NCBI GenBank assembly: GCA_003224085.1
Contig: QHYK01000038.1
Coordinates: 62,001 to 126,000, forward strand
Direction: 5' to 3'
From: Acidobacteriota bacterium
GTDB taxonomy: Bacteria > Acidobacteriota > Terriglobia > Acidiferrales > UBA7541
DNA length: 64,000 nucleotides
Shown: piece by piece, positions 44,867 to 62,550 of the stretch
How positions within the stretch are numbered: position 1 is the first letter of the stretch
Layout: each line of letters opens with the position of its first letter
Made by a program: the position numbers and the translations under genes
The notes under the pieces: model-generated
The model's input: only the letters and a program-made list of their open reading frames with translations
Databases searched by the model: none
What the model was told of the DNA's origin: nothing

Positions 44867-45009
44867 CTGAGAATCAAAAATACTGGATCACACTGATAGC
44901 CTCGCTAATGGTTGCCTACTTGGGAAGCAAGGCTCCCAGCTACAGAATGCCGCTTGATTTGGCGGGTGGCCTACGCATCCCGCTCCAGTATAATCGGGAT
45001 CTGAGATGA
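44863..45009 (+). CDS. Possible 48-residue single-helix membrane peptide
   Basis: An ORF that overlaps both neighbours: its ATG overlaps the transposase stop (ATGA) and its TGA overlaps the cofG ATG (ATGA). It starts MTENQKYWITLIASLMVAYL, one hydrophobic helix, then a short tail. It may be a chance frame or the end of the former insertion. The double overlap is the only support. Confidence 0.2.
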   Translation: MTENQKYWITLIASLMVAYLGSKAPSYRMPLDLAGGLRIPLQYNRDLR

Positions 45010-46217
45010 GGAAAAGGATTGCCAGCACAAAGGCCGAGACGGCGTTGGAACAGGCGGGGCGAGGGCAGCGTATGAGTCGCGAAGAGGCGCTGGTGCTGGC
45101 TTGCCGCAACGGGCAGCCAGAGCCAGTGCCGCTCGACGAATTGCTGGGAGCAGCGAGCCAGGTGCGCCAGCAGGGAAAGGGCAAGACGGTCACCTTCTCG
45201 AAGAAGGTTTTTATTCCGCTGACGACGCTGTGCCGCGACTATTGCTCCTACTGCACGTTTCGTAAAGATCCGGGACAGCCTGGCGCGCACTTCATGACGC
45301 CGGACGAAGTGCTGGCGCTGGCGGAACAGGGACGCCGCGCCGGCTGCAAGGAAGCGCTGTTTAGCCTGGGCGATCAGCCGGAACGGATTTTTCCGGAAGC
45401 GCGGGAATTTCTGCGCCGGCAAGGTTACGCGTGCACGCTGGATTATCTTGCGGCGATGTGCGAGTTGGTGCTGGAGCGCACGGGTCTTCTGCCGCACGCG
45501 AATCCCGGCGTGATGGACGGCGCGCTGCTCGACAAGCTGAAAGGGTCGAACGCCAGCGTCGGGCTGATGCTGGAAAACGTCAGTGTGCGGCTGATGCGCG
45601 AAGGCTTGCCGCACGCGAACGCACCGGACAAAGTTCCCGCGTTGCGCCTGCGCACGATGGAAGAAGCGGGGAAGCGCTCGATGGCGTTTACTACCGGCAT
45701 CTTGATCGGCATTGGCGAAACGATGGAAGAGCGCGTCGATTCGCTGCTGGCGATCCGCGCGATGCACGAAAAATACGGGCACATCCAGGAAGTGATTGTG
45801 CAGAATTTTCGCGCCAAGCCGGACATTCCGATGGCGCATCACGCCGAACCTTCGCTTGAAGAAATGCTGCGGACGCTTGCCGTGGCGCGGCTGATTCTGG
45901 GCGCGCGCGTGAATCTGCAGGCGCCGCCAAATCTGAGTTATGACGATTTTCCGCGCCTGCTGGATGCGGGCATCAACGATTGGGGCGGAATCTCTCCGGT
46001 GACTAAAGATTTTATTAATCCGGAAGCGGCGTGGCCGCAAATTTCGCGTCTGCAGAAAGAAACTGAAGCCCGCGGCTTCCTATTGCGCGAAAGGCTCGCG
46101 ATCTATCCGGAGTTTGTTGCGCGCGACAAATTTGTTTCGCCGCGCGTCCGCGGAAAAATCGGCGCCCTCGCCGCCGCCGACGGCTTCGCAAGCCGAGGAG
46201 GAGTCGAAGCGCCTTGA
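45006..46217 (+). CDS. cofG: 7,8-didemethyl-8-hydroxy-5-deazariboflavin (FO) synthase subunit CofG
   Basis: 403 residues. Radical-SAM Cys triad C76-x3-C80-x2-C83 in 'LCRDYCSYCTF', 'HFMTPDEVLALAEQGRRAGC', 'FSLGDQPERIFP', 'PHANPGVM', 'LMLENVSVRL', 'TTGILIGIGET' and 'NWGGISPVTKDFINPE', all characteristic of CofG (the half of FO synthase that joins the tyrosine-derived moiety to the deazaflavin ring). CofH, its partner, is not in the window. The N-terminal 60 residues ('EEALVLACRNGQPEPV') are as expected. Coenzyme F420 production by this organism is implied. Confidence 0.93.
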   Translation: MRKRIASTKAETALEQAGRGQRMSREEALVLACRNGQPEPVPLDELLGAASQVRQQGKGKTVTFSKKVFIPLTTLCRDYCSYCTFRKDPGQPGAHFMTPDEVLALAEQGRRAGCKEALFSLGDQPERIFPEAREFLRRQGYACTLDYLAAMCELVLERTGLLPHANPGVMDGALLDKLKGSNASVGLMLENVSVRLMREGLPHANAPDKVPALRLRTMEEAGKRSMAFTTGILIGIGETMEERVDSLLAIRAMHEKYGHIQEVIVQNFRAKPDIPMAHHAEPSLEEMLRTLAVARLILGARVNLQAPPNLSYDDFPRLLDAGINDWGGISPVTKDFINPEAAWPQISRLQKETEARGFLLRERLAIYPEFVARDKFVSPRVRGKIGALAAADGFASRGGVEAP

Positions 46218-46221
46218 ATCT

Positions 46222-46304
46222 GTCATTCCAAGGAGCGGGGCGACGAGGAATGTGCTTTTGCTTCGGGCGACGAAACGCAGAACCCTCGCTTCGCTCGGGA
46301 TGAC
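46222..46304. repeat. Dispersed palindromic repeat, GTCATTCC...GGGATGAC
   Basis: An imperfect inverted element: left arm GTCATTCCAAGGAGCGGGGC from 46222, right arm CCCTCGCTTCGCTCGGGATGAC at 46283-46304. The reverse complement of the right arm matches the copy at 33387 at 20 of 22 positions. It lies between the convergent cofG and npdG genes. Confidence 0.65.
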
Positions 46305-46359
46305 TATGGTCGATCGTTTTGAACGAGGATATTTGTTCTGAATTGCGGGCGGACCACAC

Positions 46360-47058
46360 TTACTTTATTGGCGGGCCCTTCGAGGCTAAGGGTAAACCGG
46401 TGAAGCGGATGCCGGCGGTGTGAACTTTGTAGCGCGCGTTGAGGCCAATCAGCAGCGCGGTGATGGATTCGACGATGCGCGCGTTTTCGAGTTTTCCGCC
46501 GTTGAGCGCGCGCGCGCCGGGAATTTTTCCGGCTAATTCGGTGGCGACGCGTTTTGCTTCGTCATCATCGCTGCAGACCAGGATATCGCAGTCGACCGGC
46601 CCCGTTTGCGCGAGCAATTCGGCGCCCAGGTTGTGAAACGCCGCCGCGACTACCACGGATGCCGGGACAAGTTCGCGCGCCTGCTGTGCCGCGGAACCTT
46701 GCCAAACGTGGAGCATCCGCGATGGCGCGCCGCCGACGGCTGCGGCGAGGGGCACGGTCGTGTCAATGAGGATTTGTCCCGGCTTCCAGTGCGGCTTGAG
46801 TTGTTTCAGGAGCGCCGCCTGACCGGAAAAGGGAACTGTCAGTACGATGACTTCGCACTGCGCGAGGGCGGAGGCGTTGTCCGCGCCTTCAATCTTTGCG
46901 TTGGAACCGAGGCGCGCGCGAAGAATTTTCGCGGTTTCGGCGGCGCGGTTCGTGTCGCGCGAACCGATGACGATTTGCTCGCCGGCAGCGGCCCAACGCG
47001 CTGCGAGCCCCGAACCTTCCGGGCCGGTCCCGCCGAGAATTCCAATTTTTCTGCTCAT
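46360..47058 (-). CDS. npdG: NADPH-dependent F420 reductase (F420:NADP oxidoreductase)
   Basis: 232 residues: Rossmann motif GILGGTGPEGSGLA, second-strand 'VIGSRD' with Ser-Arg for the NADP phosphate, 'VIVLTVPFSG', 'LIDTTVPLA' and 'VVAAFHNLGAELL', as in Fno/NpdG enzymes. It links NADPH to F420H2. Convergent with cofG across a small repeat. The pairing with cofG supports F420 use in this genome. Confidence 0.9.
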   Translation of the reverse strand: MSRKIGILGGTGPEGSGLAARWAAAGEQIVIGSRDTNRAAETAKILRARLGSNAKIEGADNASALAQCEVIVLTVPFSGQAALLKQLKPHWKPGQILIDTTVPLAAAVGGAPSRMLHVWQGSAAQQARELVPASVVVAAAFHNLGAELLAQTGPVDCDILVCSDDDEAKRVATELAGKIPGARALNGGKLENARIVESITALLIGLNARYKVHTAGIRFTGLPLASKGPPIK

Positions 47059-47271
47059 GGTTCATCCATCTCCGCTGATGGCTGGTGTTGCACACGAGCG
47101 GGCACGTGTTGAATGGGGACGCGCTTCCCGGTGGAAAGCACCGGGGGCAAAAAACGCGAAAGCGGCCCCTACCACTGCACGCCAAAGGGGAACAGCTCAC
47201 AATCTAGTGGGTCTGGCTGATTTTTTGAAGCGGAGATTCTTGAGGCGGCACGCTTTGCAAGCGCCAATGTC

Positions 47272-47300
47272 TTGACACGACCTCTCGCACGGAATAGGCT
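47272..47300 (+). promoter_or_regulatory. Candidate promoter of the TonB-dependent receptor gene
   Basis: TTGACA at 47272-47277 and TAGGCT at 47295-47300, spaced 17 bases, with the GTG start 34 bases downstream of the -10 element. A G-rich stretch (AGGGGG) lies before the GTG. Pattern match only. Confidence 0.4.
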
Positions 47301-47333
47301 GCACGCAGGCTTTCCTTCCGCAGGGGGTGTGGA

Positions 47334-50300
47334 GTGAGTAGGAAACAATTCGTCTGTCTGCAGGCTTTGTTTGCCTTCGTGGTTTTGAGTTTCGCGTTCT
47401 TCCCTGCTTCGAATGCCCACGGGCAGGCCGTGAATGCCACGCTTTCCGGAAAAATTGTCGACGCATCTGGCGGAAGCATTGCCAAGGCCGCAGTGACGGC
47501 GACGAACACGGCGACAGGATTCTCGCGTTCCGTGCAGGCGTCCGACGGCGGCGAGTACACGATTCCCGCGCTGCCCGCGGGTGAGTACGCCGTAGCCGCG
47601 ATTTTCACGGGATTCGGCAAGCAGACCAAGGCCATCACCCTGCAAGTCGGGCAAGCCGCGGAATTGGATTTCAGCCTCACGCCGGGAAGCGTCGCGGAAA
47701 AAGTGGAAGTGGAGGCGACTTCGGAGCTGCAGGAGCCGACCCGAACGCAGGTCAGCACGGTGATCACGCAGAACCAGATCGTGGACTTGCCCGTGAACGG
47801 TCGCGAGTTCATTGATTTCGCGCTGCTGTCGCCGGCGGTGCAAATCGGAGACACGACGTCGGGCAGCACGGACGTCATCGTGGAACCAGTGACAAAACTT
47901 TCGTTCGCGGGGCAAAACATTCACTACAACTTTATCGCGGTGGATGGCGCGGACGACGTTTCGACGGCGTCAGGAATCCAGCGCGGAACGCCGCCGCAGG
48001 AATCGGTGCAGGAATTCCGCGTGATTAACACGGATTACTCGACGGAATTCGGCCGCGCGGTGGGCGGGATCGTAAACATCATCACGCGCAGCGGCACAAA
48101 CGACTGGCACGGAAGTTTGTACGAATATTTCCGCAACGACAGAATGGATGCGATCAATTTGCTGCAAGCCACCGGCGCGCACACGCTGCGGCAAAATCAA
48201 TTCGGCGGGACGATGGGCGGGCCGATCGAAAAAGACAAAACCTTTTTGTACGGCAATTACGAGGTGCAGCGGCGCGGGGAGTCCCCCTTTTACAATTCCG
48301 CGGTGCTGGCGAACATCAAGTTCATCAACGAGTTGAAGACCAACGTGTACGGCCTACCGGCAGAGCCGAGTCTCGGTGGAGTTTTGCGAACCAACGATAC
48401 GGACAACGGATTTGTGCGCGTGGACCACAGCTTCAATGCCAACCAGCAGTTGTTTGTGCGCTACTTCATCAACGACGGACGTTTGCTGAACCAGTCGCCG
48501 TTAAATGACGGATTCGACCTGCCGTCGGCGTTTAAGAACAACTTTTACCGGGACCAGTCGGTTGCGAGCACGCTGGCTTCGGTAATCCATCCGAAGCTGG
48601 TGAACGAATTGCGCATGCAATTCGCACGGCGGTCATTCGATTTTCCGACGGTGACGACACAGCCGCACCTGGAACTTTCGAATACCTTCACGCTGGGCGT
48701 GAATCGCGGCAATCCGGATTTTTACCGGGAATCGCGGTTTGAGTTGGTGGACAACGTGACGCACAACCTGGACAAGCACACGGTGAGCTTTGGCGGGAAC
48801 TACAACTTTGTGAAGACGACCGAATCGTTCCCGCTTTTTTATCCGTTCGAAGCGGATTTTCCGAGCCTGGGCGCTTATCTTGGAAATGACCGCACGAATG
48901 GGGCGAACTGCGTTTCGCCGGCGGGCGATCCCGGCGGGCCGGGGCCGGCGGGATGCCAGTATCCGAACGTGGTTTTCTTCGAGCGCTTCCAGGCGCCGAA
49001 TTACAATGAACCAGCCCTGGCCAATTTTGCTTCTATTTATGCGGGAGGACGCATCAGCTCGGCGATTCGCAATGCGGCCGAGGGATCCATGAATCACACC
49101 TACGACGGCCTCTATATTGAAGATAAATGGCGAGTTACAAGCAATCTCACGCTGAACGGCGGGATTCGCTGGGAATGGGAGACGTGGCCGAGCAACGCGT
49201 TGAACACGCAGTGGAAGAACTTTGATCCGCGGCTTGGCACGGCTTACAAAGTCGGGACCAGGAAAAATGTGGTGCTGCGCGGCGGGTTCGGACTCTTCCA
49301 CGGGATTATTCCGGCGCCTTTGCTGGCGTGCCAGATTCCGTCCTGCGGGGGCACGCCCAACATTTCTCAGCTCAATAACGGCAAATATCCTGGGCGGCCG
49401 TTCGAGGACAGTTTGAATGCCAAGACGGAGCTGTTTGCGTTTGCGAGCGGTACCGGTATCACTGCCTTCGCGCTCAATCAGCTCCTAACAAACGGCACTT
49501 ATCCGGATGCCGTTCCTTTTCCCAACGTTTGCTTCCCAGGTGAGACAACGTTGGCACAGTGCGGATTCTTCGGCCCTTCCGTGATTGTGCGGTTCGTGCA
49601 AAATCATCAGAATCCGTATGGGATTCAGGCCAGCCTTGCTTTGGAATTCGAGCCGCTGCCCGATGCGACAGTGAGCATCAGCGGACTGCACGTTCGCGGC
49701 GTGCATTTGGGAAGCTTTTTCAACGTGAATCAGCCCGATCCCAACACGGTTCTTGGGCCACAGATGCTCCACGATTCGCAGGGACGCGCGGGACCGAAGA
49801 ATATCTACTGCTCGGCTTTGCCATGCCCTTACAGCCCCGGCGTGCGCACATTTCCGATTGCGGTTTATTTCGAGGCGACGTCGCGGTGGGATTCGCAGTA
49901 TGACGGCTTGCTGATCAATTTGAACAAACGGTTGACGCGGAATATCTCCTATGGCCTGAGCTACACGTGGTCGAAAACGACTGACGACGGCCCGAATCCG
50001 AGCTTCGTGCTGATTCCACAGGACAGCGGGAATTTCCGGGAAGAACGTGCGCTGTCTTCGGATGACGTGCGGAACCGCCTGGTGCTGAACGGAACGGTAA
50101 CCACGCCGAGCGGCTGGAATATTTATGCCCGCGACTATGAACTGGGGCTGATTGCCACCATTCAATCGCCGCAGCGGTTTTCCAAGTTTGCCGGGTTCGA
50201 CGCCAACGGGGACATTTTTGGCAACAACGACCGGGTGGGCATCGAGCCGCGCAATACTTTCGTGGGGGACAATTTCCGGTCGGTCGACCTGCGCGTGGGG

Positions 50301-50561
50301 CGGAAGTTTAGGTTCCAGGAAAAGCGCAGCGCGGAGTTTTTTGCCGAGGCCTTCAACCTTTCGAATACCTTGAACGTGCGCTTCTTTAACACCGTGTATG
50401 GCGCAGCGGACTTTTGTCCATTTAACAGCACGCCCAAGGCGTTTGGGTGCCCCGCGGTTCCGTCGGGATTCCGCGAGGGCTCACCGAACCCGCTCTATGG
50501 GACACCGAGAGCGGTCAACAACCCGCGGCAGATTCAGCTAGCGTTGAAGTTCAATTTCTAG
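47334..50561 (+). CDS. Oar-like TonB-dependent receptor with carboxypeptidase-regulatory domain
   Basis: 1075 residues from GTG 47334. Signal peptide about 1-31 (ending 'SNAHGQ'), a CarboxypepD_reg-like Ig domain (about 33-118, 'SGKIVDASGGSIAKAAVTA', 'YTIPALPAGEY'), a plug domain ('IVDLPVNGREFID', 'EFRVINTDYSTEFGRAVGGI' with 'GTNDWHGSLYEYFRND') and a long outer-membrane barrel. It ends with an aromatic strand, 'QLALKFNF'. This architecture is abundant in Acidobacteriota and is thought to import large ligands such as oligosaccharides or peptides. No TonB or partner lipoprotein is next to it. Confidence 0.93.
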   Translation: MSRKQFVCLQALFAFVVLSFAFFPASNAHGQAVNATLSGKIVDASGGSIAKAAVTATNTATGFSRSVQASDGGEYTIPALPAGEYAVAAIFTGFGKQTKAITLQVGQAAELDFSLTPGSVAEKVEVEATSELQEPTRTQVSTVITQNQIVDLPVNGREFIDFALLSPAVQIGDTTSGSTDVIVEPVTKLSFAGQNIHYNFIAVDGADDVSTASGIQRGTPPQESVQEFRVINTDYSTEFGRAVGGIVNIITRSGTNDWHGSLYEYFRNDRMDAINLLQATGAHTLRQNQFGGTMGGPIEKDKTFLYGNYEVQRRGESPFYNSAVLANIKFINELKTNVYGLPAEPSLGGVLRTNDTDNGFVRVDHSFNANQQLFVRYFINDGRLLNQSPLNDGFDLPSAFKNNFYRDQSVASTLASVIHPKLVNELRMQFARRSFDFPTVTTQPHLELSNTFTLGVNRGNPDFYRESRFELVDNVTHNLDKHTVSFGGNYNFVKTTESFPLFYPFEADFPSLGAYLGNDRTNGANCVSPAGDPGGPGPAGCQYPNVVFFERFQAPNYNEPALANFASIYAGGRISSAIRNAAEGSMNHTYDGLYIEDKWRVTSNLTLNGGIRWEWETWPSNALNTQWKNFDPRLGTAYKVGTRKNVVLRGGFGLFHGIIPAPLLACQIPSCGGTPNISQLNNGKYPGRPFEDSLNAKTELFAFASGTGITAFALNQLLTNGTYPDAVPFPNVCFPGETTLAQCGFFGPSVIVRFVQNHQNPYGIQASLALEFEPLPDATVSISGLHVRGVHLGSFFNVNQPDPNTVLGPQMLHDSQGRAGPKNIYCSALPCPYSPGVRTFPIAVYFEATSRWDSQYDGLLINLNKRLTRNISYGLSYTWSKTTDDGPNPSFVLIPQDSGNFREERALSSDDVRNRLVLNGTVTTPSGWNIYARDYELGLIATIQSPQRFSKFAGFDANGDIFGNNDRVGIEPRNTFVGDNFRSVDLRVGRKFRFQEKRSAEFFAEAFNLSNTLNVRFFNTVYGAADFCPFNSTPKAFGCPAVPSGFREGSPNPLYGTPRAVNNPRQIQLALKFNF

Positions 50562-50594
50562 TGTCCTAGGCCGCTAGTTCGCGGCAAAAAGAAC

Positions 50595-50617
50595 GAGGCT
50601 TCAGGGGCTGAAGCCTC
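50595..50617. other. Perfect hairpin downstream of the TonB receptor
   Basis: GAGGCTTCAG (50595-50604), loop GGG, CTGAAGCCTC (50608-50617). On the plus strand it is followed by TTGAAAAAAAA rather than a T-run; on the minus strand by GTTCTTTTT. It could terminate transcription only from the minus strand, where there is no gene, so it may be a repeat element or an mRNA 3'-end stabiliser. Confidence 0.4.
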
Positions 50618-50773
50618 TTGAAAAAAAACGGACTTAATGTCGGATCTAAAGCTCCGACCCCCTAAAGTGTCCAGGTGAGGGGGGGCTCTGGCTCGTTCGC
50701 TGGTCCGGAAACTCCAGTGCACCGGGGCCGGACGTTCTTCGGAGAGGGGCAGCAAAACGAAGGATTTTTTCAG

Positions 50774-51910
50774 ATGACGGACATCCAATCGACTAGCAAC
50801 GCGAGGTCGATAAGCGCGGCCGGAGCTGGGTTTGCGGCGATGAGCGCGCGAAGGTTGCTGGCGCTCGGCGGAATCGGGCTGATTCTGGTGGGGATGCTGG
50901 TAGGGGATCTTTTTGCGGTTTTTGTTTTGCACCAGAACGCGGCGAAGGTGGGGGAGAGCTTGTCGGGGGCCGCGCACGCCGCAGTCTCAGGAGACGCGAA
51001 TGCGGTCGCCCGCAGTTTTAAAGCCGTCGGGAGTTTTTTGGAGAACCGCGGAACGAAAGTGGACACTCACGTCCACATGATCGCGTTTGGTTACCTGGCG
51101 CTGATGCTTGCGATTGTGCAGCCGTGGGTGGCGCTCAGCGAGGGCACGAGAAAAAAAGTGGCTTGGACTTTTCTTATCGGATCGTGGCTTCTGCCCGTTG
51201 GCGTCTTTCTGATTCATTACGTGGGGCTGGCTTACAGCCCGCTCGAGGCGATTGGGTGGGCCAGCATTTGTGCTGATTTCGGCGGCACGCTGGTGGTCGC
51301 GGCCACGCTTCTGTATTTGCTTGGAATTGCGCGGCACCTTCGGCAGCCCGGGCGTGCTCAGATGGAAGACAGCCTGCTCAAAGACCGTAGCAGCGCAGGC
51401 CGGATTTTATTGGCGGGCGGGCTGGCCCTGGTGCTTCTGGGCTTTTTTCACGGCGCCTACTACGCGGGAGCTGATCTCTATCGCCATGAGGCGCTCGACT
51501 ATGCGCTCCTTTCGGAGATGAGCATCGCGGCCACGGCGAAGAATGCGGCGGTGGTTGATGCAGCTCTCGGCGAGTATGGACAACTGGCAGGGGAAAAAGC
51601 GGTGCACATTGCGGCGCACGCACACTCGATCGAGTTTGGCCTGCTGGCGATACTGGTGGGGTTTTTCCAGCCCTACGTGAGCCTGCGCCATTCGTGGAAG
51701 CGAAATTGGGCGTGGGCGCTTCTGCTGGGCTCGCTGGGGCTGCCGGTGTTCGTTTTGTTGGAGCTGAAGCTCGGGCTTGTAGCGGGCGGGATCGCGGACG
51801 TTTGCGGGTTGCTGGTGATTGTGGCGTTGGTGGCGATGTGGATCGGGATCGTGCGATACACCGGCGAGCTTGACGCCATGGCGCTCTTGGAAGAAGGAAA
51901 AAGCGGATGA
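50774..51910 (+). CDS. Membrane protein with two tandem copies of a four-helix HxH domain
   Basis: 378 residues from the ATG at 50774. Two halves of about 185 residues share the order: 'RLLALGGIGLILVGM' / 'RILLAGGLALVLLGF' helix, a polar loop, a His motif (H99-V-H101 in THVHMIAFG; H282-A-H284 in AHAHSIEFG, with H278 nearby), a helix ending 'AIVQP' / 'GFFQP', a charged turn, and two more helices with 'GSWLLPVGVFL' / 'GSLGLPVFVLL'. Eight helices in total. The HxH pairs at the start of a helix could bind haem or metal. I do not recognise the family. Overlaps the next gene, which holds a third copy, by 4 bases. Confidence 0.75.
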   Translation: MTDIQSTSNARSISAAGAGFAAMSARRLLALGGIGLILVGMLVGDLFAVFVLHQNAAKVGESLSGAAHAAVSGDANAVARSFKAVGSFLENRGTKVDTHVHMIAFGYLALMLAIVQPWVALSEGTRKKVAWTFLIGSWLLPVGVFLIHYVGLAYSPLEAIGWASICADFGGTLVVAATLLYLLGIARHLRQPGRAQMEDSLLKDRSSAGRILLAGGLALVLLGFFHGAYYAGADLYRHEALDYALLSEMSIAATAKNAAVVDAALGEYGQLAGEKAVHIAAHAHSIEFGLLAILVGFFQPYVSLRHSWKRNWAWALLLGSLGLPVFVLLELKLGLVAGGIADVCGLLVIVALVAMWIGIVRYTGELDAMALLEEGKSG

Positions 51911-52395
51911 GCTCTGCGCGGCGCTTGCTTATCATCGGCGGAATCGGCCTGGCGTTGCTGGGCATGATCTATGGCGTGTGGTACGCCGTTTTTGCGGAAC
52001 ATCAGGAACTCGACGGGATGGGCAAATCTCTCGCGACGAGCTTCAGCGCGACAGCAAAACGAGATTCGCTGGCGGCCGGCGAGGCCTTAAAGGAATACAA
52101 AGAACTGAAGTACGCCTACGACCGGCACGTGGACGTGCACGGACACTGGATCGGACTCGCGATGATTCTGATTGTCCTGGGATTGGCGATCGATCGCGCG
52201 TTCGATGAGCGCGTCCAAATGCTCCTAGCCGCTGGGTTGATGGCGGGATCGCTGCTTTTTCCGCTGGGAGTACTGATGCAGACGCTAAACAACGGGCCCG
52301 GGCCGCGGGCGCTGGCGGTGGCGGGGTCGGCGCTGGTCATTGTGTCGCTAGCGGGAATGACGCTGGGTTTTGCGCGGGCTCGGACGGGCGACTGA
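51907..52395 (+). CDS. Membrane protein with a single copy of the four-helix HxH domain
   Basis: 162 residues, one unit of the domain duplicated in the upstream gene: 'RRLLIIGGIGLALLGMIYGV' at the N-terminus, then H74 in DRHVD, H78-G-H80 in VHGHWIGLA, a helix, a charged turn ('DRAFDERVQ') and 'AGSLLFPLGVLMQ'. The start overlaps the preceding stop (ATGA). The two gene products probably assemble into one complex with three HxH sites. Function unknown. Confidence 0.75.
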   Translation: MSSARRLLIIGGIGLALLGMIYGVWYAVFAEHQELDGMGKSLATSFSATAKRDSLAAGEALKEYKELKYAYDRHVDVHGHWIGLAMILIVLGLAIDRAFDERVQMLLAAGLMAGSLLFPLGVLMQTLNNGPGPRALAVAGSALVIVSLAGMTLGFARARTGD

Positions 52396-52584
52396 AGACT
52401 TGTAGGCGGCCGGGGCAGTTTAAAAGAAAAACGAAAGCGAAAGGTTTGGATGGACTTGCTCCCTTGCTCCAAGGTTTCGGGGGAACTAGAATGACGGCGC
52501 GGGAATTGGCCATCTGCCTGCGCAGCTTGCGGCTAGCTTCGCGATTGTTCCGAAGCAGGTGTCGAAGGAAGAGCGGAATTTAAA

Positions 52585-53487
52585 GTGTACGCGGCGCCGT
52601 TTTCTTATCATCGGGCCACCTCAGTTCAGGAGGCGGTGAAGCTGCTCCAGGAGCTAGGCGAAGAGGCCCGCGTCATCGCTGGCGGGCAGAGCTTGATTCC
52701 GCTGATGAAAATGCGCATGGCGCGGCCGACAGCTCTCGTCGACATCAATCCCATTTCCAGCCTGAGGGAAATTGAGACCTCCAAAGGAGAGCTGCGGTTT
52801 GGCGCGCTGGTGCGGCACGCCGACCTGGAGCACTCCGCGGCGGGCGCGACTGTGCCGATCATTCATGATTGCGCGGCCGGAATTGCGGATGTGCAAGTGC
52901 GTGATCAGGGAACGATTGGCGGTTCGCTGGCCGAGGCGGACCCGAGCGGCGATTGGGGGACCGCGCTGCTGGCGCTCGAGACTTCCGTGGTTTGCTTTGG
53001 ACCCGACGGGCAGCGAACCGTGCCGCTGGAAGAGTTCATCCAGGATGCGTTCACGACCGCGCTGGCGCACGACGAGATTGTGACGGCAGTGCACGTGAAG
53101 GTGCCGCCAAAGGGCAGCGCGGGCGCGCACCTGGCGTTCAAGCGCAGCGCTCCGGTGTATCCGACGGCGAGCGCGTCGGCGCAGCTCACACTGGAAGATC
53201 ACAACCGGTGCAAAGAGGTGCGCATCGTTTTGGGCTGCGTGGGGTTGACGGCGATTCGCGCGAAGGAAGCCGAAGCGGCGCTGCGAGGGAAATTGCTGGA
53301 CGAAAAGAATATCCGGGCTGCCGTGGAAGCAGCGAGGGCCGCGGCGGATCCGCAGAGCGACATGCGCGGCTCAGCGGATTACAAGCGCATGCTGGCGGGC
53401 GCTCTGGTGAAGCGCGCCATCGGGATCGCCGCACGGAGGGCGCGGGGTGAATCGGTGGAAGCAGGGCATGAGTATGTCGGACGCTAA
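52585..53487 (+). CDS. Molybdenum hydroxylase FAD subunit (CoxM/XdhB-like)
   Basis: 300 residues from GTG 52585. The FAD motifs [13 protein letters not shown] (about 32-44) and [16 protein letters not shown] (about 109-124) are those of the medium subunit of xanthine-dehydrogenase/CO-dehydrogenase-type enzymes. '[13 protein letters not shown]' and a C-terminal CO_deh_flav_C domain ('[14 protein letters not shown]') are present. Electrons pass from the Mo centre via two 2Fe-2S clusters to this FAD. First gene of the large operon; the 2Fe-2S gene starts inside its 3' end. Confidence 0.92.
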
Positions 53488-53959
53488 GAAGATTCTTGTG
53501 CGTGCCCGCGTGAATGGAGAGGCGCGGGAAGCGGAAGTGGAGCCGCGGACGCTGCTGGTGGAGTTCCTTCGCGAGCATCTGAACCTGACCGGCACGCATG
53601 TGGGCTGCGATACGTCCTACTGTGGCGCGTGCACGGTGATCCTGAATGGCCGCACGGTGAAGTCGTGCACGCTGTTTGCGCCGATGGCCGAGGGAGGAGA
53701 AATCACGACTGTCGAAGGACTTGCGAAAGGCGGCAAGCTGCATGCGATTCAGGAAGCCTTTGCGGAGTGTCACGGGTTGCAGTGCGGCTATTGCACGCCA
53801 GGGCTTTTGCTTGCCACGCTGCAACTGCTGAGGAAACATCCGCGGCCAACGGATGCGCAGATCCGCAAGGGCATCGCGGGGAACACGTGCCGGTGTACCG
53901 GCTATCAAAATGTTTTCAAGTCCATTCGCATGGCGTCTGCGGAAATGGAGAAGCGGTAG
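53468..53959 (+). CDS. Molybdenum hydroxylase 2Fe-2S subunit (CoxS/XdhC-type)
   Basis: About 163 residues from ATG 53468 (53474 is an alternative). The plant-ferredoxin-like cluster is bound by '[12 protein letters not shown]' plus the later 'KSC'. The second cluster sits in the helical domain with '[10 protein letters not shown]' and '[10 protein letters not shown]'. All eight Cys are present. Starts 20 bases before the FAD subunit stop, so the two are coupled. Confidence 0.93.
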
Positions 53960-53962
53960 GCG

Positions 53963-54406
53963 ATGGAGATCAAGCTGTCCGGCGATTTCACGGTGAAGAA
54001 GTCGCCTGAGGAGGTGTACAGCTTCCTGGTGGACCCAAAACGGTTTTGCCCGCTGCTGCCGGACTTTCAGGGCATGGAGATTTTGGATCCGAAGAATTTC
54101 TTGGTGAAGCTGAGCGTGGGCATTTCGCACATTCGGGGAACGGCGGCGGTGAAAATGACGCTGGTTGAGGATCAGCGTGCGCGGAAAGCGGTGTACGAGG
54201 GGAAAGGCGAAGTTCCGGGAGGATCGGCCACGATTCGCGCGCAGTTTGAACTTGAGGAATTGCCGGGCGGAGGGACGAACGTTACATGGTCGGGCCAGTC
54301 GAGGGTGCTGGGACGCGTGATTTCTCTGGCCGGCGGCTTGCTCGAACCGCTGGGGATAAAGAATGTGCAGAAGCTGATTGACGGGCTGCAGAAGGCGCTT
54401 GCCTAG
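53963..54406 (+). CDS. CoxG-like SRPBCC protein
   Basis: 147 residues of SRPBCC fold: 'MEIKLSGDFTVKKSPEEVYS', 'FCPLLPDFQGMEI', 'GTAAVKMTLVE', 'GGGTNVTWSGQS' and a long amphipathic C-terminal helix. CoxG proteins accompany CO-dehydrogenase-type enzymes; a quinone-binding or membrane-recruiting role has been reported for CoxG of CO dehydrogenase. This one lacks the long C-terminal tail of some CoxG. Three bases separate it from the 2Fe-2S gene. Confidence 0.88.
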   Translation: MEIKLSGDFTVKKSPEEVYSFLVDPKRFCPLLPDFQGMEILDPKNFLVKLSVGISHIRGTAAVKMTLVEDQRARKAVYEGKGEVPGGSATIRAQFELEELPGGGTNVTWSGQSRVLGRVISLAGGLLEPLGIKNVQKLIDGLQKALA

Positions 54407-54422
54407 AGATGAGATAGGTCGG

Positions 54423-56963
54423 ATGGCTGGAAAATCCATTACCAAAGTGACGAGGAAGAAGGCGGCGGGGCGCGGTTCTTCGAGGCTTTCCGCAAATGGA
54501 GCGAGAGCGTCGGCTGCAAAATGGGTGGGCCAACCCATTCGCCGCAAAGAAGAGAACCGGCTGGTGAGCGGGAAGGGCATCTTCGTCGACGACGAAAAGA
54601 TGCCGGGGATGCTGCACATTCGGTTCGTGCGGTCTTCCTACGCACACGCCAAGATCGCGCGGATTGATGTTTCGAAGGCGGGAAAGTTTCCTGGAGTTGT
54701 TTGCACACTGACTGGCGCGGAAATCAAGAAGCAAGTGCAGCCGTTTATCGAGATTGGGCCGGGGGGCGCGCAGAAAATTGCTGACTACCCGATGGCCGTG
54801 GACAAAGTTGTTTTTCAGGGTGAGCCGGTCGCCGCGGTCGTTGCGGAAACGAGGTTTGCCGCCGAGGATGCCGCGGAACTTGTGGAGGCAGACTACGAGC
54901 CCTTGCCACCGGTGGTTACGGCGGAAGACGCGCTGAAAGATGAAAGCCTTTTGCATCCCGCGATGGGCACGAACCGGAATTGGCACGGTGTGTTTGAATA
55001 TGGCGACGTGGAAAAGGCTTTCCAACAAGCGGCGCACGTCGTGCACATTGGACGATTGCATTTTCATCGGTTTTCGAGCACGCCGCTGGAATGCAATGTG
55101 ATTTTGGCGAATTGGGATCCGCGTTCGGGCGACATCGAATATCACTGCAACAATACTTTTCCTTCGTTCGCGTCGCAGTTCCTGGCGCCGGCGCTGGGCG
55201 TGCGCATCGATCAAATTCACATGAAGAGTTTCGACATTGGCGGCGGCTTCGGGATCAAGATTACAAGCTATCCGTACATGGCGGCGTGCGCGCTGGCTTC
55301 GCGCAAGGCGGGCGGGCGCGCGGTGAAATGGGTCGAGACGCGCATCGAACATATGCAAGCGAGCGCCCACGGTAACGAACGCACGTTCCTGGACACGCGC
55401 GTGGCGCTGGACAAGAATGGCGTCATTCTGGCAATCGATTCGAAACATGTGGACGATTGCGGGGCGTTTCCGCGGTACGAACCGCTGGGGTGCGTGATCT
55501 GGGCGCAGGTGCTTCCCGCGACGTATCGTGTGAAAAATATTCGCATTGCTATGCGCCAAGTGGTGACCAACAAGTGTCCCGTTGGCCCGAATCGCGGTTA
55601 CTCCCGGATGCAGCACCTGTGGTTTATGGAACGGGTGATGGATATTTGCGGGCAAGCTCTGGGGATTCCGGCTGATGAGATGCGCGTGCGTAATTACATT
55701 CGCAAAAACGAGATGCCGTACAAAACCCCGAACGGGTGCGTCTACGACTCCGGCGATTACGCGAGCATGCTGGCGATGGCGAAGAAACTGGTTGGCTGGG
55801 ACGAGTGGAAGAAGAAGCAGGCCGCGGCGCGCAAAGAAGGACGCTGGATTGGACTGGGGATTGGCTCGACGCTCGACTCCGGAACGAATAATTTTGGACA
55901 AGCGCGGATTATTAATCCTGATGCGCCGTTCTCCGGACAATCCAAAGTCGGCATCGTGAAGCTGGATATCTACGGCGAAGTGGTGGTCAGCATGGGCTCT
56001 GTGCCGCAGGGCCAGGGGCATGAGACGGCGGCGGCGCAGGTCGTTGCCGATGCGCTCAACATCACGCCAGATCTTGTAAACGTGCGGCCGGGCTTCGATA
56101 CGGCGCACAACGCGTACACGGGACACACGGGGACGTATGCGAGCCAGTTTGCGGTGACGGGGCTGTCGGCGATTCACGGCGCGGCGATAAAGCTGCGCAA
56201 AGAATTGAGCCGCCTCGCCGCGTGGAAACTGCAAGCCAAGGAGAAGGATTTGGAGTTTGGCGTGGGCGCGCAAGGGCCGGAGGTACGCGTCAAAGGGAGG
56301 CAGAAAGCGATCAATTATTGGGCGCTGGCGAATTTGGTAAACGTGAACAATGCCGGAATGCCGGAATCGCTTTGGGACATCACCTTGAACTGCAGGCACG
56401 TGTTTCATGCAAATTTTCAGATTCCCGACGTCAAGCGGAAGTACGGCAACTTAACGCTGACCTACGCCGCACAAATTCACGCTGCTGTCGTTGAGGTGGA
56501 CCGCGAAACATTTCAACCAAAGATTCTCGCTTACGCTTGCGTGGATGATTGCGGGAAAGCGGTGAACCCGCGCATCGTGGAAGGCCAGGTGCACGGAGCT
56601 GCGGCGCACGGGATTGGCGCGGCGCTGCTAGAGAATTGTGGGTACGATTCGGACGGCAACCTGCTCGCGGCAACGTTCAGCGATTACACGCCAATCACGG
56701 CCGTGAATATCCCGGAGCTTTTGTACGGGCACATGGAATCCCCTTCGCCGTTTACGCTGAACGGAGCGAAGGGCATGGGCGAAGGCGGGGCGGCTCCAGT
56801 GCACACGATTTGCGCGGCGCTCCAGGATGCGCTGTATTCGAGCGGGGTAATCATCGATGATTCGCACAACACCGGCGACTCGCTGTTCCACACGATGCAA
56901 AAGGCGGAGAGCGGCGCGTATAAGGGAATGGTGCGTGTCGAACATCGCCGTGCCGCCAGGTAG
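54423..56963 (+). CDS. Molybdenum hydroxylase Mo-binding subunit (CoxL/XdhA-like), not a canonical CO dehydrogenase
   Basis: 846 residues. The aldehyde-oxidase hammerhead domain (about 35-155, 'VFQGEPVAAVVAETRFAAEDA') precedes the Mo-binding region with 'SFDIGGGFGIKI', 'SVPQGQGHETAAAQVVADAL' for the cytosine-dinucleotide cofactor and KGMGEGGAAP, whose Glu is the expected catalytic base. In the loop where CO dehydrogenase has AYxCSFR and many XDH-type enzymes have RGAGRPE, this protein reads PVGPNRGYSRMQHL. It should hydroxylate a heterocycle or aldehyde rather than CO. The N-terminal 35 residues are Lys/Arg/Ser-rich and atypical. Confidence 0.92.
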   Translation: MAGKSITKVTRKKAAGRGSSRLSANGARASAAKWVGQPIRRKEENRLVSGKGIFVDDEKMPGMLHIRFVRSSYAHAKIARIDVSKAGKFPGVVCTLTGAEIKKQVQPFIEIGPGGAQKIADYPMAVDKVVFQGEPVAAVVAETRFAAEDAAELVEADYEPLPPVVTAEDALKDESLLHPAMGTNRNWHGVFEYGDVEKAFQQAAHVVHIGRLHFHRFSSTPLECNVILANWDPRSGDIEYHCNNTFPSFASQFLAPALGVRIDQIHMKSFDIGGGFGIKITSYPYMAACALASRKAGGRAVKWVETRIEHMQASAHGNERTFLDTRVALDKNGVILAIDSKHVDDCGAFPRYEPLGCVIWAQVLPATYRVKNIRIAMRQVVTNKCPVGPNRGYSRMQHLWFMERVMDICGQALGIPADEMRVRNYIRKNEMPYKTPNGCVYDSGDYASMLAMAKKLVGWDEWKKKQAAARKEGRWIGLGIGSTLDSGTNNFGQARIINPDAPFSGQSKVGIVKLDIYGEVVVSMGSVPQGQGHETAAAQVVADALNITPDLVNVRPGFDTAHNAYTGHTGTYASQFAVTGLSAIHGAAIKLRKELSRLAAWKLQAKEKDLEFGVGAQGPEVRVKGRQKAINYWALANLVNVNNAGMPESLWDITLNCRHVFHANFQIPDVKRKYGNLTLTYAAQIHAAVVEVDRETFQPKILAYACVDDCGKAVNPRIVEGQVHGAAAHGIGAALLENCGYDSDGNLLAATFSDYTPITAVNIPELLYGHMESPSPFTLNGAKGMGEGGAAPVHTICAALQDALYSSGVIIDDSHNTGDSLFHTMQKAESGAYKGMVRVEHRRAAR

Positions 56964-57006
56964 CGAGTCCATTCGCCATCGCCTCCGCAATGTCAGGAAA
57001 GCTTAG

Positions 57007-57954
57007 ATGAAGCGCGTTTGCATCATCGGGTGCGGGTCCATCGGCAGCTTGTATGCGGCGCATCTCGCGCGGGTGGCGGAAGTATGGGCGTTCGTGCGGC
57101 GCGCGGATCACGCTCGGGCGCTCAATGAACAGGGGCTCCGAGTCTCCGGAACGCATGATTTCCACGCGAATCTGCGCGCCACGAATGATCCTTCGGCTTT
57201 ACCACAGTTCGATTTCGGAATCGTTTCCTGCAAGGCCACGCAAACACCGGACGCCGTCGCTCCGGTCGCGCATCTTTTCAAGAATGGCGCCATTTTGTCT
57301 TCGCAAAACGGTCTGGGAAGCGAAGAAATCATCGCCGAAATTGCAGACACTTACGTCATGCGCGGAACCACGTTCATGAGCGGCACGCGTGTCGCCGACA
57401 CGCAGGTGCGCTATGAACTCGACACCGCGACGTGGATGGGCCCGTTCGAACCGACGAGGACACCATTCGCTCTGGTACAGGAGGCTGCCGCGTTGATCAG
57501 CTCCTCGGGCCTCAAAGCGATGGCTCTCGAAGATGCACGCCCGGCGCAATGGTCGAAGCTCATCTTCAACGCATCGGTCAACGCCGTGGCAGCTCTTACG
57601 GAGCTTCCGCACAGTTTTCATTTTGCGGAAGAAAAGCAATTCAGCGATCTTGGTCATTTGCTGCATGCCTTGATCGAGGAAGGGAAGAGAGTCGCGGAAG
57701 GTCTCGGCGTGAAGCTTTACGAAGATCCCTGGGAGATGAACAAGATCGGCGCGCAAACGGATCATCCGCCTTCGATGCTTTACGACATCCGCCACAAACT
57801 CGAAACTGAAGTTGATTTTCTCGGTGGAGCAATTGCCCGCGAAGCCCAACGCGCGGGCCTCCCGGCGCCACTTCACACTGCGCTCTATCGTCTGATCAAG
57901 GCCAAAGAGGCTTCGTGGACGTACCAAGGCCGGGAAAAGGCGGTTGCCAAGTGA
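57007..57954 (+). CDS. Ketopantoate-reductase-like dehydrogenase A
   Basis: 315 residues of the PanE/ApbA family: CIIGCGSIGSLYAAHL (NADP-binding), 'SQNGLGSEE', 'RGTTFMSG', 'AQWSKLIFNASVNAVAAL' with the catalytic Lys and two Asn, and 'TEVDFLGGAI' with the substrate-site Glu region. It is paralogous to the gene at 61569. Its place in a catabolic operon suggests a 2-ketoacid or hydroxyacid dehydrogenase step, not pantothenate synthesis. Stop overlaps the M24 gene start (GTGA). Confidence 0.88.
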   Translation: MKRVCIIGCGSIGSLYAAHLARVAEVWAFVRRADHARALNEQGLRVSGTHDFHANLRATNDPSALPQFDFGIVSCKATQTPDAVAPVAHLFKNGAILSSQNGLGSEEIIAEIADTYVMRGTTFMSGTRVADTQVRYELDTATWMGPFEPTRTPFALVQEAAALISSSGLKAMALEDARPAQWSKLIFNASVNAVAALTELPHSFHFAEEKQFSDLGHLLHALIEEGKRVAEGLGVKLYEDPWEMNKIGAQTDHPPSMLYDIRHKLETEVDFLGGAIAREAQRAGLPAPLHTALYRLIKAKEASWTYQGREKAVAK

Positions 57955-59126
57955 GCTATCCGGTCGACGAGAAGAAGCTCGAACGCGTGCGCGAAATCAT
58001 GGAGCGCCATCATCTCGATGTTTTAGTCGCCCGTGCGCCCGACAATATCCTGTACTTGACGAACTATTGGACGATGAAAGGCTATGACCTCGTCATTTTT
58101 CCCCGAGAAGGCGAGACGACGCTTTTGGTTATCGAGCCGCAATTTCGCGAGGCGCAGCGCACGGCTTGGAACAAGGACGTCCGCTACTTTCGTTTCTACG
58201 ACGCAAAAGATCCGCGCCCACCTATGGTGCGCTCGACCGAAATGGCCGTTGACGTTTTGCGCGAACGAAAATTGGATGGCCGTGTGGGCGTTGAACTCTC
58301 GCAGTTTTCGCAGATTTGCGATCGCATGGTGGGAGAGCCGACGGTTTACTGGCAAGGGTATTACGACGCGTTTCGCTCGAGCTGCCAGGAAGTCGTTGAC
58401 GCCGCGCCGCTGCTGGCGGAAGTGCGCATGATCAAGACAGAGCAGGAAATCGAACGCATGCGGCTCGCGAACGAATTGGCGGCGATCGGTATGGAGTATG
58501 CGCGCAAAAATGTCAAACCCGGGATGAAAGAAAGCGAAGTCGCGGCCATGATTGAAGGCCACATCCATGCTGCGGGTGTTGGTTACAGGGACAAAGTTGA
58601 AATGGCGCGCGCGTTCACTCTGGTTTGGTCGGGAAAGGGGATTGCAACGTTTACAGCGACAAGTCATCGCCCGGTGATTGAAAACGAACCGACGCTGGTT
58701 GAGATTTGGGTTTGTGCGGACGGGTACTGGACGGACCTTACGAAAAATATCTGCCCCGGCCGCCTGACTCCCGAATACAACCGGCTTTTGGATCAACTGC
58801 TGAAGATTTTCTCTGACGGCGTCGCGTGCGTTCACGATGGCGCGCCTCTCGCGGAGATTGACCGCATCCTGCGAAAGGGGATTGACGTTGCAGGGTATCC
58901 CGGCCAGCCATCGCACCCGGTAGCGCACGGCGTGGGCGCTCGCGCGCACGAACCGCCGTATTCTCATCAGGCCGCTCCGGGTAGGATGCGCTCCGGGATG
59001 GTACTCGCCATCGAGCCAGGCGTGTACTGGGAAGGCGGTGGGGGGCTGCGCCTGGAAGACAATTTTCTGGTGACCGAGAGCGGCTGCGAAAAGCTTTGCA
59101 CTTATCCGGACGATTTTCGCTTTTGA
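57951..59126 (+). CDS. M24 family peptidase (Xaa-Pro dipeptidase/aminopeptidase-like), metal site largely kept
   Basis: 391 residues from the GTG at 57951, which overlaps the previous stop. An N-terminal creatinase-type domain (about 1-140, 'LVARAPDNILYLTNYWTMKG') precedes the pita-bread catalytic domain. The five metal-ligand positions read Glu251 (usually Asp), Asp262, His326, Glu355 and Glu369, so the site is intact except for a conservative Asp-to-Glu change. 'HPVAHGVGARAHEPP' and 'AIEPGVYW' are typical. It probably cleaves an amide or C-N bond of the pathway intermediate. Confidence 0.88.
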   Translation: MSYPVDEKKLERVREIMERHHLDVLVARAPDNILYLTNYWTMKGYDLVIFPREGETTLLVIEPQFREAQRTAWNKDVRYFRFYDAKDPRPPMVRSTEMAVDVLRERKLDGRVGVELSQFSQICDRMVGEPTVYWQGYYDAFRSSCQEVVDAAPLLAEVRMIKTEQEIERMRLANELAAIGMEYARKNVKPGMKESEVAAMIEGHIHAAGVGYRDKVEMARAFTLVWSGKGIATFTATSHRPVIENEPTLVEIWVCADGYWTDLTKNICPGRLTPEYNRLLDQLLKIFSDGVACVHDGAPLAEIDRILRKGIDVAGYPGQPSHPVAHGVGARAHEPPYSHQAAPGRMRSGMVLAIEPGVYWEGGGGLRLEDNFLVTESGCEKLCTYPDDFRF

Positions 59127-59132
59127 GGCGAA

Positions 59133-60413
59133 ATGGCAACCCCGTCAACGCGAGGGCAGAGTGAGTCTATGAAGGAAGATTTGGCCAGGGCCATCCTTTC
59201 GCAGATTCGCGAAGACGAATTGGTGGCGATGTGCTGCGACGTTGTGAACATCCCCAGTCCCACCGGCGAAGAGCTGGAAATGGGCGGCTACATGCGGCGC
59301 GCTTTGGAAGAAATCGGCCTATCGGTTTCCCGGCAGGAAGTTGAGGAAGGCCGCGCGAATGTCGTGGGGCTCTGGGAAGGCGAAGGAAACGGCAAAAGCT
59401 TGATGTTCAACGGCCACATGGACACGTCCAACACCGGTCGCGAGGAATTTCTTACGGGGATCGGCTACAAGCCGAGAGCGATGGTCAAGAACGGGCTGAT
59501 CTACGGGCTCGGCATCTACAACATGAAGGGTGCGCTGGTCTGCTACACGCAGGCGGTGAAAGCGCTGAAGCGCGCGGGCGTGAAGTTAGAAGGTGAGCTG
59601 ATGATTGCCGCGGTCGTTGGTGAAATCGAAAAAACGCAGTGGAGCGACGAATTTGTGGGCAGGGAGTTTCGCGGCTATGGCGTGGGCACGCACCATCTCG
59701 TCAACCACGGCGTCTTGCCCGACATGTGCATTCTCGGCGAGCCCACGGACTTACAGTTGGTCCTCGGACATTACGGCACAGTGTGGGTGCGTTTGTCTGT
59801 GCATGGCCACTACGTGCATACGGGGTTCACGCGCGGCAAACAGGACTTGAGTTCGGTCTTCAGGATGAAAGAAATTCTGCCCGCGATTTACGATTGGATC
59901 GCTGCCTGGGAAAAGAAAGCGACCTACGACGGCTTGCCTGGGGTCGTTAACGTTGGCTGCATTCGTGGCGGCTTTCCGTGGCGCGTTAGCCGGACACCTG
60001 AGCGCACAGATGTTTTCCTGGATGTTCGCGTGCCGCCCACCATGCCACTTAAGGAAGTGCGGGTTGCGGTCAAGAAACTCGTTCTTGAGCTTCGCAAAAA
60101 GCATCCGGACTACGGCGTGGAATACGAAACTTTTGTTTCCGTTCCCGGCGCGGAAATCTCGAAAGACCATCCGCTAGTCAAGACGGTGGAGGCCTGTCAC
60201 CACAAGGTTCTGGGGACGCCTGCGAAACATGCGACCGTTTTGTGGGATTCCGACGCTTCCGTCATGGCGCGCTTTGGCATCGACACGCTGAACTATGGTC
60301 CGTCCAGCGGTCCCCGCGATGCTGAGGGCGAGAAAGTGGCCATCGAGACGCTCCTCAACACCACAAAAATTTATGCTCTAGCCGCCGCTGAAATCTGCGG
60401 AGACCACGGATAG
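59133..60413 (+). CDS. M20 family amidohydrolase-like protein with altered metal site
   Basis: 426 residues. The M20 pattern is clear: 'IPSPTGEELEMG', 'FNGHMDT' (His95, Asp97), 'GEPTDLQLVLGHYGT', 'HGHYVHTGF' in the dimerisation domain, 'VFLDVRVPPTMP'. The bridging metal ligand, Asp in the usual S-D-MKG, is Asn130 here (GIYNMKGAL), and the last His of the family end motif is replaced in 'GPSSGPRDAEGEKV'. The Glu pair is 'VGEIEKTQ' (Glu164, Glu166). The fold is that of carboxypeptidase G2, ArgE or N-carbamoylase types; whether this one binds zinc is uncertain. Starts 6 bases after the M24 stop. Confidence 0.85.
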   Translation: MATPSTRGQSESMKEDLARAILSQIREDELVAMCCDVVNIPSPTGEELEMGGYMRRALEEIGLSVSRQEVEEGRANVVGLWEGEGNGKSLMFNGHMDTSNTGREEFLTGIGYKPRAMVKNGLIYGLGIYNMKGALVCYTQAVKALKRAGVKLEGELMIAAVVGEIEKTQWSDEFVGREFRGYGVGTHHLVNHGVLPDMCILGEPTDLQLVLGHYGTVWVRLSVHGHYVHTGFTRGKQDLSSVFRMKEILPAIYDWIAAWEKKATYDGLPGVVNVGCIRGGFPWRVSRTPERTDVFLDVRVPPTMPLKEVRVAVKKLVLELRKKHPDYGVEYETFVSVPGAEISKDHPLVKTVEACHHKVLGTPAKHATVLWDSDASVMARFGIDTLNYGPSSGPRDAEGEKVAIETLLNTTKIYALAAAEICGDHG

Positions 60414-60435
60414 CGACCTATGGAAGAGGCACAAG

Positions 60436-62498: not shown

Positions 62499-62550
62499 GC
62501 ATATCTCGCATAACCTTCCAGACGGTCCGCAGTCAGAGAAACTCAAATCT

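Follow-up and report, generated by a model that had tools for sequence, protein, structure and literature searches.

A two-plus-one gene pair with a predicted haem-copper oxidase fold and invariant HxH motifs, found near oxidative catabolic genes of Acidobacteriota and marine Gammaproteobacteria

Four-helix units in oxidases and related membrane proteins

Respiratory oxidases are thought to come from a triplicated four-helix unit. In their subunit I, the first histidine of the HxH motif of helix X binds the high-spin haem and the second one the low-spin haem, with helix II contributing the histidine that completes the ligation of the latter; the copper ligands are supplied by helix VI (one) and helix VII (two). 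Considered unit by unit, the third unit keeps both HxH-type histidines, and a single one is kept in each of the other two. NnrS is another oxidase-like 12-helix protein and, for it as well as for other proteins with homology to haem-copper oxidases, a role in the scavenging or sensing of small reactive molecules has been suggested. Regarding the HCOH proteins of Pei et al. 2014, their oxidase-like units are reportedly encoded singly or in threes, with homo- or heterotrimers being proposed; that work is said to describe one-unit and three-unit proteins and no two-plus-one pair.

Among single-unit proteins, styrene oxide isomerase is presented as a trimer of four-helix subunits carrying haem b at the interfaces through one histidine, this ligand being located on TM2, with cytosolic termini and a catabolic setting (PMC11374702, PMC12502698). 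Its authors indicate no substantial DALI match to other proteins (PMC11374702). YgdD and MAPEG are trimers of four-helix units as well and are described as resembling the oxidase core (PMC4602095).

Here, we report the analysis of a pair of adjacent genes, hereafter A and B, found in a stretch of 64,000 nucleotides from an Acidobacteriota genome (the window; contig QHYK01000038.1). Our best reading, which relies on predicted structures, is that A and B encode oxidase-fold proteins akin to the HCOH proteins and to styrene oxide isomerase rather than a respiratory oxidase. With subunit I of haem-copper oxidases and NOR they would share a predicted 12-helix fold made of three four-helix units and, with oxidase subunit I, an HxH motif on the second helix of a unit; they differ from the latter in that the genes are split two plus one and in that HxH is present in all three units. 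The likeness to styrene oxide isomerase would lie in four-helix units assembled in threes, a TM2 histidine and the catabolic setting; however, the isomerase is a homotrimer of single units with one TM2 histidine, whereas A and B have HxH. YgdD and MAPEG are likewise single-unit homotrimers, unlike A and B, and their likeness stems from the published description. As for the HCOH proteins, they would have in common with A and B oxidase-like four-helix units and would differ from them by lacking the two-plus-one split. What would be new in A and B is this gene split and the retention of all six second-helix histidines.

On the grounds of unit homology, HxH invariance, gene coupling and fusion, operon context and a predicted fold, we propose, with a probability of roughly 55%, that A and B form an inner-membrane pseudo-trimer of oxidase fold, most likely with haem b, that serves as a redox or catalytic module in oxidative breakdown. 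Its recognition would account for a gene pair so far left blank in operons for oxidative catabolism in soil Acidobacteriota and marine Gammaproteobacteria, possibly as a new membrane haem protein. Moreover, a living family whose units are still recognizable by sequence, split two plus one and fused once, would open the origin of the oxidases to biochemical tests. Our literature search retrieved no paper on the A/B pair, with a mention in Pei et al. 2014 being possible.

The A/B gene pair and its three homologous units

An earlier note on this DNA described a duplicated two-unit protein and a single-unit protein whose genes are translationally coupled, and this description is borne out (Table 1). 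Indeed, the ATGA overlap recurs in nearly all of the 38 pairs in which A and B are separate, the exceptions being two loci with an overlap of 1 base (L056 and L061) and one with a gap of 10 bases (L077), and in one further locus both genes are joined naturally in a single open frame of 564 residues from the chosen start (L070:9908-11599). As L070 carries A and B in one frame, the two proteins very likely function as one object. In the window, an in-frame GTG is found at 50675, upstream of the ATG of A, and the conserved sequence starts from about residue 20 of A. The genome that bears A and B amounts to 6.8 Mb, the window lying on its contig C151.

Table 1. Position in the window of genes A and B, their units and motifs, and the adjacent genes
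Feature	Position	Strand	Remarks
TonB-dependent receptor-like outer-membrane protein	47334..50561	+	carboxypeptidase-regulatory-like domain (Pfam)
Gene A	50774..51910	+	378 aa, ATG start, two four-helix units
Unit A1	50843..51346	+	residues 24-191 of A; homologous to the other units
HxH of A1, H99-V-H101	51068..51076	+	both His 40/40
Unit A2	51386..51874	+	residues 205-367 of A; homologous to the other units
HxH of A2, H282-A-H284	51617..51625	+	both His 40/40
Gene B	51907..52395	+	162 aa, one four-helix unit
ATGA overlap, B start / A stop	51907..51910	+	4-base overlap in 35/38 separate A/B pairs
HxH of B, H78-G-H80	52138..52146	+	both His 40/40
Molybdenum hydroxylase genes (FAD subunit, 2Fe-2S subunit, CoxG-like, Mo subunit)	52585..56963	+	Pfam

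Matches to A were retrieved at E <= 1e-3 in 15 of 61 genomes, its own genome counted; one of them, in G046 (E 9e-4), falls in a 491-aa ORF that reads like a NADH dehydrogenase subunit and was taken as chance. A pattern scan, which detects only genomes bearing one of two peptide patterns, yielded 43 loci, several of them on the same contigs as in the 61-genome search: 37 belong to Acidobacteriota-type assemblies and six to Gammaproteobacteria (L071, L073, L075, L077, L078 and L079). Named relatives are mostly soil Acidobacteria and Terriglobia assemblies. Compared with five relatives, dN/dS values are 0.08-0.17 for A and 0.17-0.23 for B, which indicates purifying selection on both.

Residues were counted over 40 sequences, that is, the window and the 39 of the 43 loci having whole A and B, with L065, L067, L072 and L080 set aside since A is incomplete or split there. 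The earlier note had singled out the pairs H99/H101, H282/H284 and H78/H80 and tied their value to conservation among homologues; all six histidines stand at these positions and are invariant (40/40), the motif being present in every unit-1, unit-2 and unit-3 row (40/40 each) from Acidobacteriota to marine Gammaproteobacteria. Over all units, one glycine and the two histidines of HxH make up the complete set of invariant columns (alignment of 72 rows from 24 of the 39 loci). In two of the three units, a further invariant histidine follows TM1 (H53 of A and H32 of B, 40/40 each); the histidines closest to this place in the middle unit, H226 (24/40) and H238 (26/40), are variable, and the fused protein of L070 has a leucine at the equivalent of H226. 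On their third helices, the units bear H148 (37/40, tyrosine in three), E330 (40/40) or Q125 (36/40, glutamate in four).

The three units are homologous. In pairwise hhalign comparisons, they align over near full unit length with E-values, each for a single comparison, of 6.3e-32 (U1-U2), 3e-25 (U1-U3) and 1.7e-20 (U2-U3). In a tree of the units from 17 loci and four single-unit relatives, each unit forms one clade containing both phyla (support 96/98, 100/98 and 94/95), implying that the three kinds of units predate either the split of the phyla or a transfer between them. A1 and A2 are grouped (98/96), provided that the tree is rooted towards the single-unit relatives, which have long branches and join with a support of 92/81; from these sequences, A looks like the product of a duplication within the family.

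Stand-alone four-helix HxH proteins occur in other Acidobacteriota (L033, L114, L115 and L116), a search for single units giving any match in 6 of 247 genomes; the locus L117 from this search is left aside here. With the profile of these relatives, an E-value of 2.5e-12 is obtained for the B unit and one of 1.9e-11 for all units, compared with 0.11 for the reversed profile, these E-values being flattering as the proteins were recruited with profiles of the A/B family. One of them, L033, adjoins a multihaem cytochrome-like ORF.

A few loci depart from the usual arrangement. At L080:4729-6121, the two units of A are encoded in separate, overlapping ORFs ahead of B, either a genuine three-gene version or an assembly frameshift. 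At L032:1504-1932 (G316), B follows a TonB-type gene, lacks most of its TM1 and has no A beside it, and at L015 (G032, minus strand, approximately 1192-1668) the last part of A2 continues in frame into the central part of B, as though an internal segment had dropped out, which is possibly a decaying copy.

Predicted fold and relation to known families

Sequence searches assign the pair to no described family. Pfam and NCBIfam searches with A and B, and Pfam searches with 12 A and 11 B members, gave no fitting family; the lowest Pfam E-value, 0.0054 for PMP22_Claudin, was obtained in one of 12 members and is not convincing. The oxidase family PF00115 returned no match up to E 10 with A, B or the same 12 A and 11 B members, and unit profiles compared with 26 PF00115 and 31 CcoN-like sequences gave E-values of 0.15-0.62, against 0.18-0.84 for reversed controls. 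The best alignment of the all-unit profile to PF00115 sequences does pair HxH with HxH, at a non-significant P of 0.18; likewise, in the comparison with HCOH proteins the predicted fold agrees and the sequence similarity to oxidase helices 9-12 is non-significant. Neither A nor B has the HH pair of oxidase helix VII and, with neither this pair nor a PF00115 match, A and B are not taken as a respiratory oxidase. Furthermore, no gene for a subunit II or a NorC-like protein was detected by Pfam and NCBIfam among 13 neighbours in the window. DUF2871 was considered as a single-unit relative and rejected, with one match in 41 genomes that lies below the cut-off and in a COX1-family, CcoN-like protein; there (L111:1-1200), DUF2871 falls weakly on the HxH region (E 0.005-0.0065, below cut-off).

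Structure prediction points to the oxidase superfamily. AlphaFold2 models were obtained for A (pLDDT 79.3, pTM 0.78, 13 sequences) and for the L070 fusion (pLDDT 87.0, pTM 0.85, 538 residues modelled). The latter was folded with an alignment of 29 rows (L070, 12 A and 16 B), chosen among 49 row sets tried so that the B rows lie on the C-terminal unit, the first alignment having placed them on A1. In the model of the fusion, 12 helices fall into three sets of four, each beginning with two helices of 44-53 residues. Foldseek against the PDB gave oxidase subunit I as top match for A (E 0.029) and for the fusion (E 0.008), with ranks 1-23 of the fusion being oxidases or NOR and rank 24 a chloride channel; no match reached E <= 0.001 for either model, and TM-scores were around 0.2-0.3 with high rmsd. 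With VIA, all 50 matches listed for each model are oxidases, NORs or supercomplexes containing one. The best of these is cbb3 CcoN for A (Z 19.4, rmsd 4.0, 271 residues aligned), which is the closest oxidase among the matches listed; the best one for the fusion has Z 18.8 (rmsd 4.4, 277 residues aligned), where about 14 is the typical best Z for helical models having no clear match. As VIA re-aligns Foldseek candidates only and its rows are redundant, these results count as one finding, and they leave B mostly unaligned.

From these models, A and B are predicted to share the fold of haem-copper oxidase subunit I. The earlier note had considered that the fold might match a known non-redox family; the best fold matches, by Foldseek and VIA, are redox proteins. 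Its 12-helix assembly of three HxH units is supported by residue conservation, the occurrence of a natural fusion and the structure models; that the three sites are equal would be an inference. As to its suggestion of a haem- or quinol-binding redox module, indirect support comes from the predicted oxidase fold and from an HxH on helix 2 comparable to that of helix X.

In the best VIA rows, residues 24-374 of the A model align with CcoN 13-471 and residues 6-360 of the fusion with 6-467, B being left out by the sequential alignment, and a few ba3 rows reach into B. These ranges agree with a placement in which the first oxidase unit seems to be occupied by A1 and the last by A2, leaving the middle place to B. 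If this placement, read from alignment ranges, holds, the path from A1 to A2 would run round the ring in the direction opposite to that of the oxidases, and the fusion would be independent of theirs. At lower odds, this may be carried further: A and B could be related to the oxidase core while being fully symmetric and having retained all six second-helix histidines, so that each inter-unit pocket would hold a bis-histidine haem (alternatively, two haems and one metal site could be present, H148 of A1 being an extra ligand), and could have derived from single-unit trimers through fusion in the opposite direction, by a separate route of 1+1+1, 2+1 and 3 units, the last represented by L070. Like the copper ligands of oxidase helix VII, H148 of A1 is carried by a third helix. 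If true, this would be a separate evolutionary route to the architecture of respiratory oxidases.

A different chemistry is suggested by styrene oxide isomerase, in which a five-coordinate ferric haem b at the interfaces would polarise an oxygen of a reactive intermediate of catabolism for a rearrangement that involves no electron transfer. Up to E 10, this isomerase is the sole PDB match of the A profile, placing H282 on the presumed haem ligand, with a second collinear stretch at TM4; its four-helix units, cytosolic termini and interface haem and its occurrence, like that of A and B, with catabolic genes point in the same direction. However, the match has an E-value of 2.3 and is lost with the all-unit profile, which gives six chance matches, and the B profile gives none up to E 10. 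In the register of the E 2.3 match, F105, F288 and L84 stand at the position of isomerase Asn64, which follows the haem ligand by six residues, the second invariant histidine of A and B has no counterpart there in the isomerase, and A and B are found in operons of different chemistry. We regard a Lewis-acid enzyme of this type as rather unlikely. Isomerase and MAPEG are both absent among the VIA matches listed, an absence that excludes nothing.

Putative role and catabolic neighbourhood

In the pseudo-trimer that we favour, A1, A2 and B would be arranged as three homologous four-helix units, with N termini probably in the cytoplasm and hence the long TM1-TM2 hairpin of each unit in the periplasm. 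The charges of A (K/R:D/E) fit a cytoplasmic N terminus: 2:0 at the N terminus, 3:1 in TM2-3, 6:3 in TM4-5, 3:0 in TM6-7 and 0:1 in TM3-4. The TM2-3 loop of B, with two K/R and three D/E, departs from the positive-inside pattern, and the topology is proposed with corresponding reserve. The HxH on TM2 of each unit would stand where oxidase helix X has its own and, by three-fold symmetry, the two histidines of one pair would face two neighbouring inter-unit pockets; pairs split in this manner would offer two histidines to each of three pockets. Haem b would most likely be bound in at least one of them. The complex would act at the periplasmic face as a membrane haem protein with redox or catalytic function, which may contact a quinone or a substrate; its reaction could serve to break down oxidatively a compound that the cell takes up, often with a TonB-type receptor gene nearby.

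Regarding this receptor, 18 of the 40 loci with more than 600 bp upstream have a homologue no farther than 1.2 kb ahead of A, and TonB receptors are also present in the gammaproteobacterial loci L078 and L079. This frequent neighbour, together with the lack of another inner-membrane carrier among the window neighbours scanned, would suit an inner-membrane permease, or a metal transporter as the earlier note had proposed, handling a compound or metal delivered by the receptor and binding metal rather than haem through HxH. The predicted fold argues against it, as all matches above the chance level of the tool belong to the oxidase superfamily, and we know of no transporter with a haem-copper oxidase fold. 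The transporter guess has gained no support and appears to us quite improbable.

A coxM homologue occurs at a distance of at most 2.5 kb from B in 26 of 37 loci. The order of genes in many Acidobacteriota loci is TonB-type receptor, A, B, molybdenum hydroxylase genes, then ketopantoate-reductase-like, M24, M20, M24 and ketopantoate-reductase-like genes. The Mo subunit of the window (CoxL-like, 54378-56963) has neither AYxCSFR nor AYRGAGR, which we take to be the motifs of CO dehydrogenases; with both tested motifs absent, a plain CO-dehydrogenase role was rejected and, judging from its sequence, this subunit is probably not a CO dehydrogenase. CofG, NpdG and an F420-type luciferase-like gene are also near A and B in the window. 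In the region 45006-63636, these three genes lie around the conserved cluster of two ketopantoate-reductase-like, two M24 and one M20 genes, which is possibly an F420-dependent catabolic pathway, partly common to Halieaceae.

A and B could also scavenge or sense small reactive molecules that arise from oxidative catabolism, such as nitric oxide or oxygen, a role that their presence beside several unlike oxidative pathways would suit. The predicted fold would be common to NOR (VIA for A, 3o0r, Z 18.0) and, in one locus on a Halieaceae contig, B is separated by 8.6 kb from an NnrS gene (L079:17451-18626). Such a role is nevertheless improbable: none of the 13 window neighbours scanned is a denitrification gene, and the tight link to one catabolic cluster in most Acidobacteriota loci exceeds what a general scavenger would need.

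Finally, the neighbours of the pair vary among loci. In Gammaproteobacteria, A and B are near luciferase-like, FAH, HMGL-like and M20-like genes. The operons, with their molybdenum hydroxylase, CoA-pathway and flavin genes, seem to share the theme of oxidative breakdown with substrates that differ and, as their chemistry differs, no single substrate is implied. In one locus (L040), enoyl-CoA hydratase and acyl-CoA dehydrogenase genes are found near the pair, and in another one (L048:1421-12436) a salicylyl-CoA 5-hydroxylase equivalog with benzoate-CoA-ligase-family and tryptophan-dioxygenase-like genes, neighbours that suggest a tryptophan or anthranilate route.
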